This document shows, one piece after another, positions 39,686 through 48,196 of a stretch of 64,000 bases of DNA. The DNA comes from Tenacibaculum agarivorans (GTDB lineage Bacteria > Bacteroidota > Bacteroidia > Flavobacteriales > Flavobacteriaceae), in the NCBI RefSeq assembly GCF_001936575.1, contig NZ_MSMP01000001.1, forward strand, positions 310,001-374,000. Direction: 5' to 3'. Made by a program: the position numbers and the translations under genes. The number at the start of each line of letters is the position of its first letter. Position 1 is the first letter of the stretch. Under the pieces are notes generated by a model that was not told where the DNA came from, searched no databases, and worked only from the letters and a program-made list of their open reading frames with translations.

Positions 39686-39873
39686 GGTTTATGTGTTTTT
39701 TTTCTCAAAACTAATAGCAAGATGGTTTTTAAAAAAAGAGAACTTAACACACTACATATAAATCGGTACAAACAACATTAACCAGCGTATAAAGTGCTTT
39801 TTATACTTCTTTTGCTGCATTTTGTACTTGATCTTATTGTAATAGCGTTTAAATCTGTATTTTCATCTTGACA

Positions 39874-40842
39874 ATGGAAATTCTTAAAAAACACATTTCA
39901 CAACTATTAGTACACCTATTATTTTGGGTGCTTTTTATATGTATATCATTATTTGTATTCTCAGAATACTATTGGTCTGAAAATCCTTTTTTACAATACC
40001 TATCTATTCTTATTTGTATAGTGTATACTAATAATTTCTTATTGCTTCCTTATTTTGTAAAAAAGAAAAGCTATTTTATTTACGCTATTATTTTCATTGC
40101 AATTTCATTTTTTGCTACTCAATTGTACTGCAACGTTTTTACACGATGTGGATGTACAATAATGAAATGTTTAAGTGATTATTTATGGCAAAGTTTAGTT
40201 CCTTTAATCTTTTTCTCTTTTGTTTGGATACTCTTTAAGTATTTAGAACGAGAGGACGAACTTCAAAAAGCACAACAAGAACGCACAGCAATGGAACTTA
40301 AGTTTTTAAAATCTCAAATGAATCCACATGTACTTTTTAATAACTTAAATACAATCTATTCTTATGCTATTGAAAAACCAGACGAAACTCCAGATTTGAT
40401 TTTAAAACTATCTGATAATTTAAAACATGTATTGTATGAAAGTAATGCAGATTTTATTCCTTTAGAAAATGAACTACAATACGTTACTAATTATATCGAT
40501 TTTCAAAGAATACGAATTGAGGGCGTTAAAAAACTAAATTATACTTCAACCATTAACAATACCAATTACCAAATTGCTCCACTACTTTTAATCGCTATTA
40601 TAGAAAATGCTTTTAAACATAGTACGCCCAATAGTACTATTACTATTAGCATTTTTCAAGAAGACTCAAACATTATTTGTTTTTGTGAAAACGAATATGA
40701 TGCTGCTAAAATTTCAGAAAGCACAAATATTGGGTTACAAAATTTAGAAAAAAGACTACACTTACTTTATGAAGATAAGTATAGTTTACAAATTAAGACT
40801 GATGCAACATTTTCAGTAACGCTAAAACTAAATTTAGTATGA
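39874..40842 (+). CDS. LytS-type membrane sensor histidine kinase
   Basis: A 322-residue protein from the ATG at 39874. An in-frame TTG at 39868 exists, but the ATG two codons later is the natural start. Four transmembrane helices (residues about 10-125) are followed by a His_kinase (PF06580) domain with H152 in KSQMNPHVLFNNLNTIYSYA, and an HATPase domain (IIENAFKHSTPNSTITIS, NIGLQNLEKRL). The next gene overlaps by 4 bp and encodes its LytTR partner. The signal is unknown. Confidence 0.9.
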   Translation: MEILKKHISQLLVHLLFWVLFICISLFVFSEYYWSENPFLQYLSILICIVYTNNFLLLPYFVKKKSYFIYAIIFIAISFFATQLYCNVFTRCGCTIMKCLSDYLWQSLVPLIFFSFVWILFKYLEREDELQKAQQERTAMELKFLKSQMNPHVLFNNLNTIYSYAIEKPDETPDLILKLSDNLKHVLYESNADFIPLENELQYVTNYIDFQRIRIEGVKKLNYTSTINNTNYQIAPLLLIAIIENAFKHSTPNSTITISIFQEDSNIICFCENEYDAAKISESTNIGLQNLEKRLHLLYEDKYSLQIKTDATFSVTLKLNLV

Positions 40843-41522
40843 TTACCTGTATTATTATAGAAGATGAATTACCTGCACAGAACATTCTTAAGAATTTTGT
40901 AGGTAAAATTCCTGATATTACCATAACTGCTACTTTTCAAACGGCAGAAGAAGCAAGTCTATATTTAAAAACAAATAGTGTAGATTTTGTATTCTTAGAC
41001 ATCAATCTTCCTGATTATATGGGGCTCGATTTTATTAAAACGGTGCTAAATCCACCTCTTATTATTATTACTACAGCATATCCTAATTATGCCTTAGATA
41101 GTTTCGAATTAGAAACTATTGTTGATTATCTGGTAAAACCTTTTTCTTTTGATCGTTTTTTAAAAGCCATTCATAAAATTAAAAAGAGCACAAATAGTGT
41201 AGAAAAACAACCTCCTAAATCCATTGTTTTAAATATTGATAAAACATTACACAAATTATCTATTGAAGATATCCTATATATAGAATCTGATAGAAATTAC
41301 ATCACTTTTGTAACCATTGGTAAAAAACTTGTGATTATTGATACATTGAAGAGATGGAAAGAAAATTTATCCGATGCATTTTTCCACGTTCATAAATCTT
41401 ACATCGTAAATATGCATCATATTGAAAAGGTTTCTGGAAATGTAATTTATATTAGAGATAAAAAAATTCCTATCGGAAGAGTTTTTAAAGCTGATTTTTT
41501 TAAAAAGTTTGACACTAAATAA
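40839..41522 (+). CDS. LytTR-type response regulator
   Basis: A 227-residue regulator. Receiver domain with acidic pocket (IIIEDELPAQ), phospho-acceptor D54 in DFVFLDINLP, and the conserved Lys in DYLVKPFSFDRF. The LytTR DNA-binding domain spans about 130-227 (LSIEDILYIESDRNYITFVT, HVHKSYIVNMHHIEKVSGN, IPIGRVFKADFF). It overlaps the kinase gene by 4 bp. LytTR proteins bind paired short direct repeats; no target site is obvious nearby. Confidence 0.92.
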   Translation: MITCIIIEDELPAQNILKNFVGKIPDITITATFQTAEEASLYLKTNSVDFVFLDINLPDYMGLDFIKTVLNPPLIIITTAYPNYALDSFELETIVDYLVKPFSFDRFLKAIHKIKKSTNSVEKQPPKSIVLNIDKTLHKLSIEDILYIESDRNYITFVTIGKKLVIIDTLKRWKENLSDAFFHVHKSYIVNMHHIEKVSGNVIYIRDKKIPIGRVFKADFFKKFDTK

Positions 41523-42295: not shown

Positions 42296-42376
42296 ACAAA
42301 AAGAGGTTGCTTTACAGCAACCTCTAAATAATCCCCTAAGATGTTTTCACCCTCTTATTACATTGTGGATGATCAC
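42296..42376 (-). ncRNA. Predicted small RNA 1 of the tandem array
   Basis: About 80 nt on minus between a perfect -7 box (TACCTTTG, complement of 42382-42389) and a terminator (stem AGAGGTTGCT / AGCAACCTCT, 42302-42325, then TTTTTG). Conserved internal segments shared with RNAs 2-4: GATCATCCACAATGTAA, GGGTGAAAA and TTAGGGGATTAT. No conserved reading frame: the one frame open in copies 2 and 3 is stopped by TAG here. Ends are inferred from promoter and terminator only. Confidence 0.65.
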
Positions 42377-42381
42377 CGATA

Positions 42382-42442
42382 CAAAGGTATGACCAAGTCA
42401 CTAGTTTATAAAGGGGATTTCCGCAGCATATATTGTGGATTT
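42382..42442 (-). promoter_or_regulatory. 61-bp promoter module of small RNA 1
   Basis: Read on plus: CAAAGGTA (42382-42389), 25 bp, GGATTTCCGCA (42415-42425), 8 bp, TGTGGATTT (42434-42442). The two GGATTT cores are 22 bp apart in direct orientation, upstream of the minus-strand start. Confidence 0.75.
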
Positions 42443-42623
42443 ATGTAGTAGTGATTACTTTTTACAATAGTGAGATTATGAAAAGAAATCAGTTACACTA
42501 ATTGCAACAGAAAACTGCTTTTCATTACACTTTTTTGTAATGATATTTTTAATCAATTATGATGGAATAAAAAGTTAGTTATTGAAATTCGAATCCTCAA
42601 AATGGATTCATAAAAAACTGAAG

Positions 42624-42706
42624 AAAAAAAAAGAGGTTGTTCCCACAACCTCTCATATAATCCCCTAAAATGTTTTTCACCCTCTTATTACATTGTGGAT
42701 GATCAC
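42624..42706 (-). ncRNA. Predicted small RNA 2 of the tandem array
   Basis: About 83 nt on minus. The -7 box TACCTTTG is the complement of 42712-42719. The terminator is AGAGGTTGT / ACAACCTCT (42632-42640, 42645-42653) with a T-run at 42624-42631. The sequence is nearly identical to RNA 3 and close to RNA 1. Confidence 0.68.
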
Positions 42707-42711
42707 ACGCA

Positions 42712-42772
42712 CAAAGGTAGAACCAAGTCACTAGTTTATAAAGGGGATTTCCGCAGCATATATTGTGGATTT
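42712..42772 (-). promoter_or_regulatory. 61-bp promoter module of small RNA 2
   Basis: CAAAGGTA (42712-42719), 25 bp, GGATTTCCGCA (42745-42755), 8 bp, TGTGGATTT (42764-42772), read on plus for a minus-strand transcript. Confidence 0.75.
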
Positions 42773-42951
42773 ATGTAGCAGTGATTACTTTTTACAATAG
42801 TGAGATTATGAAAAGAAATCAGTTACACTAATTGCAACAAAAAACTGCTTTTCATTACCCTTTTTGTAATGATATTTTTAATCAATTATGATGGAATAAA
42901 AAGTTAGTTATTGAAATTCGAATCCTCAAAACGGATTCATAAAAATCTGAA

Positions 42952-43034
42952 ACAAAAAAAGAGGTTGTTCCCACAACCTCTCATATAATCCCCTAAAATG
43001 TTTTTCACCCTCTTATTACATTGTGGATGATCAC
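42952..43034 (-). ncRNA. Predicted small RNA 3 of the tandem array
   Basis: About 83 nt on minus. The -7 box TACCTTTG is the complement of 43040-43047. The terminator stem is AGAGGTTGT / ACAACCTCT (42960-42968, 42973-42981) with a T-run at 42953-42959. Confidence 0.68.
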
Positions 43035-43039
43035 ACGCA

Positions 43040-43100
43040 CAAAGGTAAAACCAAGTCACTCGTTTATAAAGGGGATTTCCGCACTGTAGCGTGTGGATTT
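43040..43100 (-). promoter_or_regulatory. 61-bp promoter module of small RNA 3
   Basis: CAAAGGTA (43040-43047), 25 bp, GGATTTCCGCA (43073-43083), 8 bp (CTGTAGCG, different from copies 1 and 2), TGTGGATTT (43092-43100). Confidence 0.75.
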
Positions 43101-43115
43101 ATGTAGTGGTGATCT

Positions 43116-43430
43116 CTGTTTATGATTAAAAGTGAGGGCAGGAAATTTACTAAGCTTTTTACAATTAACACGATAGGTAAACAACCTAAGTTAGATTAGT
43201 GTCATTTTAAAATTAGTGTTTTAATTTTAACATCACTTCTAGTGAAATTACCTGTAATATAACTAAGAGAAATTTTGTGCTGAATCAAATTCAGCAGAGC
43301 TATTGAGAAGCTTTCAATATGCATATTGTTCTCGATACACTTTTACTTTTGATTTCGACTAAGCTCAATCACCAGAAAAAGCACTCGAACTGACAATTAG
43401 TGTTTTGAAGACTTAACTGATCAAAATATG
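43116..43430. other. Spacer inside the small RNA array
   Basis: About 315 bp without coding frame or RNA signals, ending in a family 1 dispersed repeat (43260-43402). Confidence 0.45.
43260..43402. repeat. Dispersed intergenic repeat, family 1
   Basis: GCTGAATCAAATTCAGC dyad, TTCTCGATACACTTTTAC, CGACTAAGCTCAATCACCAG and CACTCGAACTGACAATTAG. This is the fullest copy in the window; compare 6760-6895. Confidence 0.65.
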
Positions 43431-43431
43431 A

Positions 43432-43509
43432 AGCAAAAAAAAGAGGCTGTCACGCAACCTCTTATATAATCCCCTAAAATGTTTTCACCCTTACATTGTG
43501 GATGATCAC
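43432..43509 (-). ncRNA. Predicted small RNA 4 of the array (diverged)
   Basis: About 78 nt on minus. The -7 box TACATTTG is the complement of 43515-43522. In the minus-strand RNA the terminator stem AGAGGUUG / CAGCCUCU pairs fully with one U-G wobble, whereas the plus-strand RNA would have an A-C mismatch; this supports minus-strand transcription. The internal conserved segments are kept although the surrounding DNA has diverged. Confidence 0.68.
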
Positions 43510-43514
43510 TGAAA

Positions 43515-43575
43515 CAAATGTATGGGATAGTCACATTTTTATAAAGGGGATTTCCGCAAAAAAAAATGTGGATTT
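43515..43575 (-). promoter_or_regulatory. 61-bp promoter module of small RNA 4
   Basis: CAAATGTA (43515-43522), 25 bp, GGATTTCCGCA (43548-43558), 8 A residues, TGTGGATTT (43567-43575). The spacer between is different in sequence but identical in length. Confidence 0.75.
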
Positions 43576-43598
43576 CTGCAAATGGTTGTTTTTGAACC

Positions 43599-43694
43599 AA
43601 AAAAAACCCTTCAACCACGTTGAAGGATTCAATTCTTCTTTCTAATCTTTCCAAGGAATTTTTCCCTTTGTTCGTTTGAACTATTAAACTAATT
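43599..43694 (-). ncRNA. Predicted small RNA 5 of the array (unrelated body)
   Basis: About 95 nt on minus. The -7 box TACATTTG is the complement of 43700-43707. The terminator is CCTTCAAC / GTTGAAGG (43608-43615, 43619-43626) with a T-run at 43599-43606. The body shares no obvious sequence with RNAs 1-4, but the promoter module has the same geometry. A short coding function cannot be excluded. Confidence 0.55.
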
Positions 43695-43699
43695 CGATA

Positions 43700-43760
43700 C
43701 AAATGTAACTAAGTTGTTTCTCCTCTGGAAAGGGATATCTGTAACTGAAAATGTGGATTT
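43700..43760 (-). promoter_or_regulatory. 61-bp promoter module of small RNA 5
   Basis: CAAATGTA (43700-43707), 25 bp of unrelated sequence, GGATATCTGTA (43733-43743), 8 bp, TGTGGATTT followed by CCGCA (43752-43765). It lies 11 bp from the stop of the response regulator gene. Confidence 0.7.
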
Positions 43761-43770
43761 CCGCAACGGG

Positions 43771-44448
43771 TTAATCCAATATACCTAACTCTTTAGCTTT
43801 CAGCACTAAATCTGTATTATTATTAGCTTGTAAGTCTGTTCTAAGTTTTGCCAATTTGTTTTCTATGGATCTAATTTTTAAAAAACTACCATCTTCTTTT
43901 TTTACAACCCCCTCTAAGTTACTGATCTTAGGGTGGTTTGGTAATTCTTTTAAAATTTGAATAGCTACATCATCCATTTGAATTTCAACTAATGCTCTTT
44001 TCAATAGCTTCTGATGAATTTCATGTGTGTAGTATATTTCGCCTGCTAACATTTTTTGAATGGCAAAATTTAACTCATTCGTATTACATTTTCCTTTTAG
44101 TAAATACGCTGAAGGTTCTAAGTTTCTAATTACATTAAAAATACGATTGGTTTCAGAGTGCCCAGTAAGCACACCTACTTTAATATCTATATTTTCCGAT
44201 CGTAATGTTTTAATTAGGTTTTCACCGCTATCTATTTTAGAACTATTATCTGTATTATCGAAACTTAAATCTGTAAAAAGAATATCAAATGGCTCATCAA
44301 CCAATGCTACTTTAATTTTAGCATAAGCATCATCACACGAGTTTGTAGTTACAATATCTAAATTTTCTATTCCGTTTAAATACGAAAGTATTCCTTCAAT
44401 GATTAACTGGTGATCGTCTGTTAAGAGTATTTTAGTAGTTTTAGGCAT
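43771..44448 (-). CDS. NarL-type response regulator
   Basis: A 225-residue regulator. Receiver domain about residues 5-130 with the acidic pair in LLTDDHQLIIEGI, phospho-acceptor D60 in FDILFTDLSF, and LLKGKCNTNEL near the end. The C-terminal part (about 150-225, VAIQILKELPNHPKISNLEG, IRSIENKLAKLRTDLQANNN) has the spacing of a helix-turn-helix output domain, though it is not a textbook LuxR HTH. It overlaps the kinase gene by 8 bp. The five small RNA promoter modules begin 11 bp behind its stop codon, making it the prime candidate for their activator. Confidence 0.85.
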   Translation of the reverse strand: MPKTTKILLTDDHQLIIEGILSYLNGIENLDIVTTNSCDDAYAKIKVALVDEPFDILFTDLSFDNTDNSSKIDSGENLIKTLRSENIDIKVGVLTGHSETNRIFNVIRNLEPSAYLLKGKCNTNELNFAIQKMLAGEIYYTHEIHQKLLKRALVEIQMDDVAIQILKELPNHPKISNLEGVVKKEDGSFLKIRSIENKLAKLRTDLQANNNTDLVLKAKELGILD

Positions 44449-46276
44449 TTAGAGGTACTTGAATTGCTATTTGGGTTCCTTTTTCTAATTCACTAGAAAT
44501 AGCCAACTTACCATTTAATTCCCCAACTCTCTCATCCATATTTTGTAAGCCAATTCCTTTTTTAGAATTATTTGTGTTGAAACCTTTACCGTTGTCTTGA
44601 ATATCCAAATGTACAGCTTTTTTATGTACTTTAAAATTTATATCTATTCTAGATGCTTCGGCGTACTTCTGACAATTCTGAATGCTTTCTCTAATACTTA
44701 AATATAATACTCTTTTTATGGACTGATTTACATTGTGCCAATTGATCTCTTTTAGTCCATGTACCCTAATGATAAACCCTGGCTCGAAGTAATCACTAAT
44801 TAGGTTAATAATCTGATCTACAAAGTTTACTTTCTCAAAACTTACACTACTCAATTGATGCGATAGGTTTCGAACGTTTTCTTTTACCTCTTCTAATTTT
44901 TGTGCCTCTGGTAGTAACTGTGATTGCGCTAATTTTTGATGCAACAAACGTAAATCTCCAGCTACCTCATCATGTAACGATTTTGCAATTTGCCTACGTT
45001 CATTTTCTCTGGCTTGTATTTTTTGTAATTGCGCTTGATACAATAACCGTTTTCTACGAAAAGAAAAGAAGGAAATACTCGATAATAAAATAAGTACACT
45101 TAAAATAGCTACTAGCCAACCTATTATTTTTTGCTGTCGTTGCTTTTCTACTTCAGCCAAACGCTTTTCATTCTCTGACTTTAAAAAAGTGTTTTCTTTT
45201 TCTTTTTTATCCGTCTCATAACGGATTTTAGCAAACTGATTTTTTAACTGACGTTCTTGTTGAAATAAACTGTCGTTTAAAGTTATATATTCTTCTAAAT
45301 AGGCTTTAGATTCATTACCTGAGCTTAAAACAGAAAGTAATTGTAAAGCATCTAACCAACGCTTATTATTATGAGTTTGCTTGGCATATTTTAGAGCCTC
45401 AAGACCATATAGTTTAGCATTTTGGTTTTTATTTATATCTATATAAAAATTAGCTATATTTAGTAAAGTAGTACTAACCCCTTGTAAGTTATTTTCTCTT
45501 TTTTTTATTTCTAATACTTTATTGTAGCGATTTATTACTTGATCTTTCATCCCTAACTGCAACTCGCTAAATATTAAATTTTCTAATAGTAATGAGTATT
45601 GATGAGGGTGGTTTTGCTCTATACTATCGAACTTTAACCCCTTTAAAAAGTACTCTTTTGCTTTATTATGTTTTGATTGGTTTTGATATAAAAATCCTAA
45701 ATTATTTATCGTAAACAAATACTCCCTATCATTCTTATTATTTTTATTGATCTCTAAAGCTTTATTATAATAAATAGATGCTTCTTCTTTTTTATCTAAC
45801 TCTTCAGCAACAACACCGAGATTATTATATACTACCTCAATGTATTTATATGATTTTATTGGTTCTAAATATTGCAAAGCTTCTATAGAGCTGATTTCAC
45901 TGCCTAAAAAATCTTTTGCATTTCTCTGCAGTACAGCTAAACTTAACAAACGCCTACCAACTGCTAAAGAATCATTAATTAGCTTTGAAATGTTCTTTGA
46001 TTCATGATAAAAATAAAAAGCACTATCATTTTTATAAGTTAATTTATGCTGTAATGCTTTAAAATGATAGTATTTAGCAAATAAAATAGAGTCCCCTTCT
46101 AAATTATACAAAGAATCTACCTGAGTAGTTATTTTTTGTAACTTATTCAGATCTTTAGAAAAATATGCTTGTCTTCCTCTTTCTATCAACTCGTTTTTAA
46201 TTGAAGGTCTTTCATTTAAATCCTGAGCAAATATGACAAGAGGAAACAATAAAAAAATAAGTAGTCGTTTAATCAT
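44441..46276 (-). CDS. TPR-containing sensor histidine kinase (NarL partner type)
   Basis: A 611-residue kinase. Signal peptide (about residues 1-18, ending VIFAQ), then TPR repeats to about residue 330 (YNNLGVVAEELDKKEEASIY, FTINNLGFLYQNQSKHNKA), probably periplasmic. A coiled stretch and one transmembrane helix follow (about 383-403, IGWLVAILSVLILLSSISFF). The HisKA_3 phospho-acceptor is H435 in RRQIAKSLHDEVAGDL, and the HATPase is at about 510-605 (ESIQNCQKYAEASRIDINFK, DNGKGFNTNNSKKGIGLQNM). It overlaps the response regulator gene. A TPR sensor facing outward suggests a peptide or protein ligand. Confidence 0.9.
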   Translation of the reverse strand: MIKRLLIFLLFPLVIFAQDLNERPSIKNELIERGRQAYFSKDLNKLQKITTQVDSLYNLEGDSILFAKYYHFKALQHKLTYKNDSAFYFYHESKNISKLINDSLAVGRRLLSLAVLQRNAKDFLGSEISSIEALQYLEPIKSYKYIEVVYNNLGVVAEELDKKEEASIYYNKALEINKNNKNDREYLFTINNLGFLYQNQSKHNKAKEYFLKGLKFDSIEQNHPHQYSLLLENLIFSELQLGMKDQVINRYNKVLEIKKRENNLQGVSTTLLNIANFYIDINKNQNAKLYGLEALKYAKQTHNNKRWLDALQLLSVLSSGNESKAYLEEYITLNDSLFQQERQLKNQFAKIRYETDKKEKENTFLKSENEKRLAEVEKQRQQKIIGWLVAILSVLILLSSISFFSFRRKRLLYQAQLQKIQARENERRQIAKSLHDEVAGDLRLLHQKLAQSQLLPEAQKLEEVKENVRNLSHQLSSVSFEKVNFVDQIINLISDYFEPGFIIRVHGLKEINWHNVNQSIKRVLYLSIRESIQNCQKYAEASRIDINFKVHKKAVHLDIQDNGKGFNTNNSKKGIGLQNMDERVGELNGKLAISSELEKGTQIAIQVPLNA

Positions 46277-46356: not shown

Positions 46357-46494
46357 TTATCTATCACCATCTCCTGTTCCTGTATCTCCACCTCCACCTC
46401 CAGTAGATGTTCCGCCTCCTGTTGTAGGGCCTTCTTTTTCTTCGTTTGGAAATTTAGTAACTCCATTTTTTTGATTTTGAGTAATACTTAGCAT
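46357..46494 (-). CDS. 45-residue Gly-rich peptide
   Basis: Start chosen at the ATG at 46494 (MLSITQNQKNGVTKFPNEEK); a longer frame is unlikely. After EGPTTGGG the peptide is almost only Gly, Thr and Asp (TSTGGGGGDTGTGDGDR). The N-terminal half resembles short leader sequences of flavobacterial exported or modified peptides, and the GGG step is where a double-glycine processing site would be. It is just upstream of the TPR kinase on the same strand with a terminator between them. Function unknown. Confidence 0.5.
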   Translation of the reverse strand: MLSITQNQKNGVTKFPNEEKEGPTTGGGTSTGGGGGDTGTGDGDR

Positions 46495-46560
46495 GTTTAG
46501 AATTTTAAAGTTAATAATACAATAATCACTTAAATTTAAATCTTTCTGGCTAAAAAACAC

Positions 46561-47025: not shown

Positions 47026-47184
47026 CTAACAAACTTCTACAGTCTCATCGCAAACAGGTGTAGTGTTTACATCTCCGCTTCCATTACTTCCACCACCACC
47101 GCTTCCAGGACATGGTCTTCCTCCTCCATATACATTTAATAATTCTTTTTTTACAATTGCAAACTGCTTTAAATTTTCTAACAT
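47026..47184 (-). CDS. Double-glycine leader peptide D
   Basis: A 52-residue peptide: leader MLENLKQFAIVKKELLNVYG followed by GG (residues 20-22, YGGG). The core is Gly/Ser-rich with three Cys (RPCPGSGGGGSNGSGD, TTPVCDETVEVC). The leader has the acidic/hydrophobic pattern and GG site recognised by peptidase-containing ABC exporters. It is monocistronic with its own terminator and has 11-bp direct repeats about 35 bp upstream. It could be a signal, bacteriocin or modified peptide. Confidence 0.7.
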   Translation of the reverse strand: MLENLKQFAIVKKELLNVYGGGRPCPGSGGGGSNGSGDVNTTPVCDETVEVC

Positions 47185-47471: not shown

Positions 47472-47676
47472 AATAAACGTCTTTGCGAGCGATCCCTGGA
47501 TGTTTCCTGAGGTTCTCGAAGGAAAGAGATGGGGAAGCGAAGCAATCTGTTGTTTGAGAAACGAGAAGCAAGAAACAAGAGAAAAGACTAATTCAATACT
47601 TCTATCTTATTATAACAATGGAAAAGAATTTGTGTTTGATTCGTTTTTGGTGTATTTTTACATCAAACAATACATT

Positions 47677-47922
47677 ATGTCTAGACAAAGTATATCATTT
47701 ACAAAACCAAACGATGAGTGGCTAAAAGCTCAAGTAGACAGTAAAGAATATTCAAGTAAAAGTGAGTTAGTTAACGACTTGATTAGACAAGCCAGAAAAC
47801 AACAAGTTCAAATTGATTGGATTAAAGCTAAACTAGAAAAAGCTGAACATAGTGGATTTACAAACGATAGTAAAGAAAGTATTTTAGCACAATCTAAGTC
47901 TTTTCTAAATGGCCCAATATAG
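47677..47922 (+). CDS. ParD-like antitoxin
   Basis: An 81-residue protein from the ATG at 47677. A much longer upstream extension in frame would translate repeat DNA and is rejected. The N-terminal ribbon-helix-helix (QSISFTKPNDEWLKAQVDSK, SSKSELVNDLIRQARKQQVQ) is the DNA-binding and dimerisation part. The C-terminal helix (IDWIKAKLEKAEHSGF) wraps the toxin in this family. It overlaps the toxin gene by 14 bp, antitoxin first. Confidence 0.9.
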   Translation: MSRQSISFTKPNDEWLKAQVDSKEYSSKSELVNDLIRQARKQQVQIDWIKAKLEKAEHSGFTNDSKESILAQSKSFLNGPI

Positions 47923-48196
47923 GTTATCCAACGAAGCAAAAAATGACTTAATTCGGATTCATCACTACGGAGTTGAAAAATTTGGAATGACCCAAGCAGA
48001 CAAATACTTTGAATCCTTTTTCAATTATTTTGACATCATTGCTGAACGTCCTTTTTCCTTTGAATCCGTAGATTTTATAAAAAAAGGATATAGACGCTGT
48101 GTGTGCAGTGTTGACAGTATTTACTACAAAATAAATGGAAACACTGTAGAAATAATGGCAATAGTAGGAAAACAAGATTTGAATGAAAAACTATGA
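47909..48196 (+). CDS. ParE/RelE-family toxin
   Basis: A 95-residue protein of the ParE type: YRLSNEAKNDLIRIHHYGVE, ADKYFESFFNYFDIIAERPF, and the C-terminal YRRCVCSVDSIYYKINGNTV and MAIVGKQDL. ParE toxins poison gyrase; RelE relatives cleave mRNA. The adjacent ParD-like partner favours ParE. The pair lies between direct repeats, consistent with mobile acquisition. Confidence 0.9.
   Translation: MAQYRLSNEAKNDLIRIHHYGVEKFGMTQADKYFESFFNYFDIIAERPFSFESVDFIKKGYRRCVCSVDSIYYKINGNTVEIMAIVGKQDLNEKL

Follow-up and report, generated by a model that had tools for sequence, protein, structure and literature searches.

The stretch of DNA analysed here, 64,000 nucleotides (nt) of the Tenacibaculum agarivorans genome (contig NZ_MSMP01000001.1, positions 310,001 to 374,000; this whole stretch is called the window), carries on its minus strand, at 42298–43765, an array of five short transcription units that are very probably small RNA (sRNA) genes and that are very likely controlled directly by the response regulator encoded next to them. 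From the DNA sequence we predict an RNA-and-peptide circuit run by a two-component system. Our explanation as a whole, that the regulator-driven RNAs act as decoys mimicking the GGGGA-bearing leaders of peptide mRNAs, seems to us about as apt to be right as wrong; the decoy action taken by itself is a tentative proposal, and base pairing of the RNAs with their targets is about as likely.

All five units share one layout: a TAnnTTTG box, 25 base pairs (bp), TGCGGAAATCC (TACAGATATCC in copy 5), 8 bp and AAATCCACA, these three motifs being the reverse complements of those written in a first-pass annotation of the window. A motif scan confirmed the five minus-strand boxes and the exact 25-bp and 8-bp distances reported there. 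The boxes lie at 42382–42389, 42712–42719 and 43040–43047 in units 1 to 3 (TACCTTTG) and at 43515–43522 and 43700–43707 in units 4 and 5 (TACATTTG). The operators, placed by the dyad consensus described below, occupy 42414–42447 (unit 1, with the left half of the first dyad decayed), 42744–42777 (unit 2), 43072–43105 (unit 3), 43547–43580 (unit 4) and 43732–43765 (unit 5, where the first dyad is nearly perfect and the second decayed). The predicted RNAs, delimited by their terminators and assigned by class rules, extend over 42298–42381, 42624–42711, 42954–43039 and 43435–43514 (units 1 to 4, class B) and 43599–43699 (unit 5, class A, the class that adjoins the regulator in other species). Unit 1, counted from behind the box and up to the last base of its T-run, contains an GATCATCC element, an TTAGGGGATTAT motif and a terminator hairpin. 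A hairpin with a T-run closes each unit as claimed, ending 80–101 nt behind the box where about 80–95 nt had been given, and transcripts of roughly 75–100 nt are likely. The 330-bp tandem duplication proposed for copies 1 to 3 holds for copies 1 and 2 (95% identical over 192 nt ungapped); copy 3 is just 66% identical. As had been observed, the copies keep the distance between box and operator while spacer and body diverge. Copy 5 belongs to another RNA class than copies 1 to 4 (A versus B). The array does begin directly behind the response-regulator gene, 5 bp past the regulator stop codon.

To define the operator, 143 units found by score in the window and in 66 loci with the regulator were aligned on the box. 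The consensus of these 143 sites is TGCGGA-N2-TCCRCA, N8, TGCGGA-N2-TCCC, two tandem dyads with a period of 22 bp and the second dyad cut short. The proposal that two GGATTT half-sites form the whole operator is thus not borne out; the operator extends further upstream, AAATCCACA being part of one dyad and the second site most of another. Within the array the first dyad reads TGCGGAAATCCACA in copy 5 and TGCAGAAATCCACA in copy 4, and it has decayed to TACATAAATCCACA in copies 1 to 3. The box-aligned consensus is TTGCGGAAATCCACA-TTTTnnnt-TGCGGAAATCCC-nTTT ... TAnnTTTG. In the −33/−7 promoter model of Bacteroidota, TAnnTTTG is the −7 element, and the second dyad abuts the expected −33 region. 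When the operator was searched for without the box, 116 matches were found in 309 kb behind the regulator, compared with 6 in 474 kb elsewhere on the same strand and 10 on the opposite strand. TAnnTTTG follows exactly 31 nt on in 104 of the 116 operators and at 30 or 32 nt in seven, with none within 60 nt in the remaining five. When dyad spacers of 4 to 13 were tried, all 69 exact operator sites had a spacer of 8. A complete second dyad, TGCGGTTTACCGCA, is present at two sites away from the regulator (L166, L167) in the Polaribacter-type genome G016.

The full pattern, with up to 3 mismatches, occurs at 10 sites in the 5,633,033-base genome to which the window belongs, and a reversed control gave none. 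For the full module this rules out the dispersed repeat that had been named as the finding to be feared. More broadly, a repeat or mobile element without any regulatory role is scarcely credible: copies 1 and 2 do derive from the 330-bp tandem duplication, and box-less TGCGG...CCGCA palindromes do occur elsewhere in some genomes, but each of the few full-pattern sites stands before a short transcript or a small gene, and the fixed distance from box to operator has outlasted the divergence of spacer and body.

The regulator gene (43771–44448, minus strand) encodes a receiver and a divergent C-terminal domain of the NarL/FixJ type and is the predicted activator of the array, as judged from Pfam, a structure model and phmmer. 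The receiver is the only Pfam domain found (Response_reg, 31.8 bits against a cut-off of 30.2); Pfam GerE gave no match in the regulator. Residues D11, D12, D60 and K118 are invariant among 36 sequences. The model built from these 36 sequences has a mean predicted local distance difference test (pLDDT) score of 88.9, contains the helices of a LuxR/GerE-type helix-turn-helix, and in structure comparison matches spr1814, VraR, LiaR and RcsB over most of its length; phmmer with the regulator also matched VraR chains. We therefore predict a NarL/FixJ-type regulator, whose closest relatives are Tenacibaculum proteins with up to 88% identity. The gene overlaps by 8 nt that of its predicted partner (44441–46276, minus strand), a tetratricopeptide repeat (TPR) sensor histidine kinase of the NarX/UhpB/LiaS type with TPR repeats and HATPase_c in Pfam; its NCBIfam matches to UhpB, LiaS and NarX are partial and below the curated cut-offs. 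Of 59 loci, 57 have an H-box upstream of the regulator. For NarL itself, binding to 7-2-7 inverted repeats is described; the ogt gene has two such repeats in tandem, one of which abuts the −35 element (PMC7419079). The array operator appears to have much the same shape, with inverted repeats, a 2-bp centre and a tandem pair. From the dyads and the predicted fold we infer that the regulator would bind as two dimers, one per dyad, 22 bp apart.

The distribution of the module follows that of the regulator. Among the closest loci (L001–L057), 48 of 57 have at least one unit by score, with 1 to 8 copies within 5 kb, while nine more distant loci (regulators 23–72% identical over the matched part) have none, one of them having a single base downstream. 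Fifteen of 58 genomes of the genus contain the full pattern and 34 a regulator ortholog (at least 58% identity). Every genus genome with a regulator of 69% identity or more (13 genomes) has the full module, and none of the 24 without an ortholog does; the other two pattern-bearing genomes, G019 and G025, have one 3-mismatch site each, probably by chance. Where the regulator is 58–67% identical (21 genomes), coordinates show that 14 genomes have a site at a distance of 5–103 bp behind it. From these comparisons it looks as if a single unit behind the regulator was the ancestral state and was multiplied in Tenacibaculum. The first-pass annotation had read the units as sibling noncoding RNAs under one activator; that part is supported by the co-occurrence (13/13 versus 0/24) and by the specificity of the pattern across the genome, and the NarL-type regulator next to the array is the strongest candidate for that activator.

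Several results count against direct control by this gene. Nine of the 57 close loci fall under the score threshold, and decayed dyads were read there by eye. The two-dyad pattern with 2 mismatches was found in 28 of the 58 genomes, at 61 sites (reversed control, 4), and one of these genomes, G056, has no regulator ortholog. TAnnTTTG stands at the right distance in just 4 of 15 two-dyad sites examined; the others are mostly box-less palindromes before unrelated genes, one of them at C1:118861 in the window's own genome. Sites and transcripts are also related by duplication and ancestry, so that the counts are not independent; the shuffles that serve as controls for the transcript motif, the peptide leaders and the helical moment make no correction for this. 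The operator-like site in G056 and the distant paralogs in the genus (28–33% identity) could mean that another regulator binds the operator and that the neighbourhood is historical. We consider this quite improbable, given the presence of the module in every genome with a close ortholog and its absence where the ortholog is missing, the clustering of operators behind this gene in many species, and a dyad shape that fits a NarL-type dimer. The box-less TGCGGAAA...CCGCA palindromes themselves (L173, L175, L177, L178 and the C1:118861 site, L170) may be a dispersed element or the sites of another regulator.

The 143 units were sorted by simple motif rules in which class A is the default: 62 fall in class A (the unit adjoining the regulator and the Polaribacter-type units), 19 in class B and 34 in class C, 22 are peptide mRNAs, and six have no terminator by rule. 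Terminators were thus assigned in 137 of 143 units; of the other six, one is masked by N and two have a peptide frame. In class B (18 sequences), AUCAUC and GGGGAUUAU are invariant. Its terminator helix is paired in 100% of cases, and six of eight pairs are changed on both sides, largely through one replacement; the 5' hairpin is 90% paired with no double changes. Of 142 transcripts (the N-masked unit being left aside), 128 contain a motif of the form [AT]GGGG?A[AT], against about 46 in shuffles. The mean unpaired probability of this motif is 0.66 in class B (17 of 19 units scored), 0.75 in class C (34 of 34) and 0.61 in class A (59 of 62). In line with the earlier statement that no conserved reading frame is present, no shared frame was seen in classes B and C (53 of the 143 units). 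The proposed check against Rfam gave no family for the units: only a tRNA elsewhere reaches its gathering score, and all matches at E values up to 5 are far under theirs.

The regulon turned out to be wider than the RNA array that had been described, since the operator and promoter also stand before peptide genes, further sRNA units and genes for proteins of about 90 amino acids (aa). The 10 full-pattern sites of the genome comprise the five array units, two peptide genes, one sRNA-like unit and two protein genes. Those at C1:291822 and C1:292326 precede two 33-aa peptide genes, the one at C1:292138 a short transcript-like unit, and those at C40:28037 and C40:29733 genes for related proteins of 92 and 119 aa. 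Among 14 distant sites examined in relatives, seven stand before a class E short RNA, which ends in TTTAAGGGGAAAA and the terminator and lies apparently beside the same neighbouring gene each time, five stand before the ~90-aa family, and two (L129, L130; 3 mismatches each) are probably due to chance. A further ~90-aa gene under the operator was found in G035 (L176). A model of the ~90-aa protein from seven sequences (mean pLDDT 88.0) has a winged-helix-like order of elements; the label of DNA-binding protein was withheld since no match in the PDB reaches an E value of 0.001. In the region G000 C40:27736–33040 (L086 7737–13041), the genes for the 92- and 119-aa proteins adjoin genes for an AAA ATPase and an HNH nuclease (Pfam), which together resemble a Septu-type defence pair.

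The 33-residue peptides have the consensus MGKxLLxKxxxxxxxFLxxLAExGKGASYALxH (27 aligned). Differences at codon positions 1, 2 and 3 number 2795, 2250 and 4172 over 253 pairs; as most variation falls at third positions, the frame looks real. The 27 peptides are cationic (mean net charge +3.3), and in 24 of them the helical moment exceeds that of shuffled sequences (p<0.05), with a peak at 100 degrees among seven angles. NCBIfam and Pfam gave no match for the 27 aligned peptides. A hidden Markov model search found peptide genes in 11 of 58 genus genomes, as many as 8 in one genome; 197 genomes from other genera of the family had none. A number of copies are not part of the module and often share one syntenic position, and most of these keep a GGGATTA-like leader; the syntenic copies lie between a 120-aa open reading frame (ORF) and a gene read as uracil-DNA-glycosylase-like. 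Members ending in GKGASYALRH-like sequence are located in G000 at C1:291924–292772, C70:159862, C80:110583 and C19:54123 (L085, L149–L151). The same C-terminal motif ends small ORFs beside mobile-element-like genes at L152 and L164, the former being a weak match (E 0.0016).

The peptide leaders share the motif of the RNAs. Of 64 distinct peptide ORFs (one start per stop), 57 have GGGG?A[AT] in the 60 nt upstream, against 13 in shuffles. The second codon, for Gly2, is GGG in 25 and GGA in 20 of 45 peptides and never GGT or GGC, while GGG makes up 21 of 164 other glycine codons. The excess gave a Fisher p of 1.3e-8 in a slightly larger set of 67 ORFs that includes three nested starts, a value that ignores relatedness. 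The leader motif and the Gly2 bias suggest that the motif belongs to the translation starts of the peptides and recurs in the RNAs, and this is the basis of the decoy proposal. A Shine-Dalgarno role for GGGGA was considered and rejected, the distance to the start codon varying from about 2 to about 30 nt.

The mechanism that we propose would run as follows. A signal would reach the kinase/regulator pair by way of the TPR part of the kinase, and the phosphorylated regulator would bind the operator with its two dimers set two helical turns apart. Several like promoters would fire at once and so set the dosage of RNA. The noncoding RNAs and the peptide leaders carry a common GGG(G)A(A/T) motif, and through it the RNAs may draw a putative RNA-binding factor off the peptide mRNAs, in the manner of Rsm or CrcZ; where peptides are missing, the factor would be drawn off other mRNAs. 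A bolder version, which we regard as speculative and rather unlikely, is that a Csr/Rsm-like titration arose independently in this lineage, which would lack CsrA, Hfq and RRM proteins: the RNAs of up to eight promoters would mimic the leaders, draw a GGGGA-binding factor off them and so free a burst of genus-restricted cationic amphipathic peptides, which may themselves be the signal or effector that the TPR kinase reads back.

The decoy step faces a number of difficulties. In the RNAs of the window itself the motif is not predicted to lie open, its unpaired probability being 0.05–0.06 in units 2, 3 and 5 and 0.42 in units 1 and 4, and for this species that makes a freely accessible decoy site less likely. 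Of the 34 genomes with the regulator, just 10 were found to have peptide genes, for which reason we hold the decoy action to be tentative. Such genes occur in 10 of the 13 full-module genomes and in none of G008, G017 and G018, where the RNAs must therefore do something else. No decoy partner was recognized: CsrA was found in 0 of 20 genomes, with Escherichia coli and Bacillus subtilis controls positive, and Hfq likewise in 0 of 20 with positive controls; RRM_1 was missing from all 8 genus genomes and turned up in 1 of 12 genomes searched, with a positive Bacteroides control. The shared motif could also reflect descent from a common ancestral transcript.

Alternatively, the regulator-driven RNAs may act by base pairing, the conserved GGGGAUUAU / UUUAAGGGGAA serving as a seed for UCCCC sites near the start codons of several mRNAs, which we hold to be possible and about as likely as decoy action. 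This stretch is the one that is invariant in class B, and in classes B, C and E it is flanked by the 5' hairpin and the terminator, where seeds usually lie; LhrC, the csRNAs and FopS all pair with their targets. Base pairing needs no peptide genes, which are absent from many regulator-bearing genomes, and at L145 a candidate site, ATAATCCCCTAACA, stands before a 316-codon ORF, with 15 nt from its end to the start codon. The complement of the motif, however, has 18 matches, four of them the array itself, against 8 in a reversed control, and just one of 13 examined matches lies shortly before a start on the same strand. Base pairing of the Qrr kind, a system whose logic had been likened to that of the array, is thus not supported, since 14 non-self matches against 8 are no clear enrichment, although with one 14-mer and one genome the test is weak. 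Moreover, the leaders carry the motif in the same sense and so cannot be bound by it. We prefer decoy action, narrowly, because motif and sense are shared with the peptide leaders, including those under other promoters.

Another reading takes the units for peptide genes that have decayed or are very short, with a passive RNA. In its favour, units and peptide genes have promoter and leader motif in common, and the peptide genes are situated within the arrays or beside them. Class A units behind the regulator (for example L010, L011, L013 and L029) contain, in about ten species, a short frame, TTG or ATG followed by GGG and AAA (or GGA), which resembles a peptide start. Indels interrupt this frame, and close species do not share its end, on which ground we count it, provisionally, as noncoding. 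Classes B and C have no shared frame, yet the motif and the class B terminator are conserved across many species. We thus consider decayed peptide genes improbable.

Other genes of the window deserve brief mention. On the plus strand at 39868–41522, just past the far end of the array, lie the genes of another two-component system, made up of a His_kinase-family kinase and a LytTR regulator. A ParE toxin and a ParD-like antitoxin (ParD just under the Pfam cut-off) are encoded at 47674–48196 on the plus strand. Two short minus-strand ORFs, at 47026–47184 and 46357–46560, have a leader-like N-terminus or a glycine-rich tail (VYGGG..., GGGTSTGGGGG) and no Pfam match; they are perhaps natural-product precursor peptides.

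Here a single, strictly spaced operator is enough to delimit a small regulon from the DNA sequence, with ten sites in the genome and with RNAs and peptides as the output. The array offers a concrete test case for sRNA action where Hfq, CsrA and RRM were not found, and it brings a peptide family that is new, numbers as many as eight genes in one genome and has no model in Pfam or NCBIfam. Proteobacteria and Firmicutes provide well-studied examples of sRNA families under two-component control; in Gac/Rsm titration and in the Qrr arrays, a two-component output runs through several redundant RNAs. Those two systems need CsrA and Hfq, neither of which was detected in the 20 genomes searched for each, and the array has no Rfam match. 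In the titles and abstract openings of the open papers searched, neither this array nor any other two-component-driven sRNA family is described for flavobacteria, and no such array is among the Rfp sRNAs of Flavobacterium psychrophilum in the part of that report available to us (PMC9723704). The nearest multicopy family that we found in the phylum is FopS of Bacteroides: fourteen paralogous sRNAs of about 65–70 nt with a conserved unpaired stretch before the terminator, which repress susC mRNAs with a single-stranded 5' seed and are deposited in Rfam (PMC11697453). Nine FopS genes are intergenic, four antisense and one derived from a 3' untranslated region; they have canonical promoters and are bound by the RRM protein RbpB (PMC11697453). 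The array differs in promoters, arrangement and partner protein, and its units match no Rfam family and come from a genus whose 8 searched genomes gave no RRM_1 protein.

With its predicted sibling units and one operator before each promoter, the array resembles the multicopy sRNAs of the LhrC, csRNA and Qrr kind. The five LhrC siblings of Listeria are described as strictly dependent on LisRK and as having a conserved motif repeated within the RNA, and GacAS-RsmY/Z is named there as a comparable two-component sRNA output (PMC4132741). Five siblings, one two-component system and a conserved motif are common to LhrC1-5/LisRK and, by prediction, to the array; the LhrC motif is UCCC and binds target mRNAs, whereas the array has GGGGA, a sharp two-dyad operator and peptide genes that share this operator. 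In Streptococcus, CiaRH drives five csRNAs through TTTAAG-N5-TTTAAG (PMC8186281). One regulator, five sRNAs and a repeat operator are features of both, and the array differs in the operator and in its tandem place behind the regulator. LhrC/LisRK, csRNA/CiaRH and RgaS-RgaR of Clostridioides difficile are all alike to the array in architecture; in RgaS-RgaR, as in agr-like systems, RNA and peptide are both part of the output, and the RgaR operator consists of direct repeats. RgaR is a regulator of the LytTR type. Its direct targets are reported to be a handful, made up of a regulatory RNA, a peptide and small ORFs (PMC10602386). Compared with that system, the array has many RNA copies and a lineage-specific 33-aa peptide.

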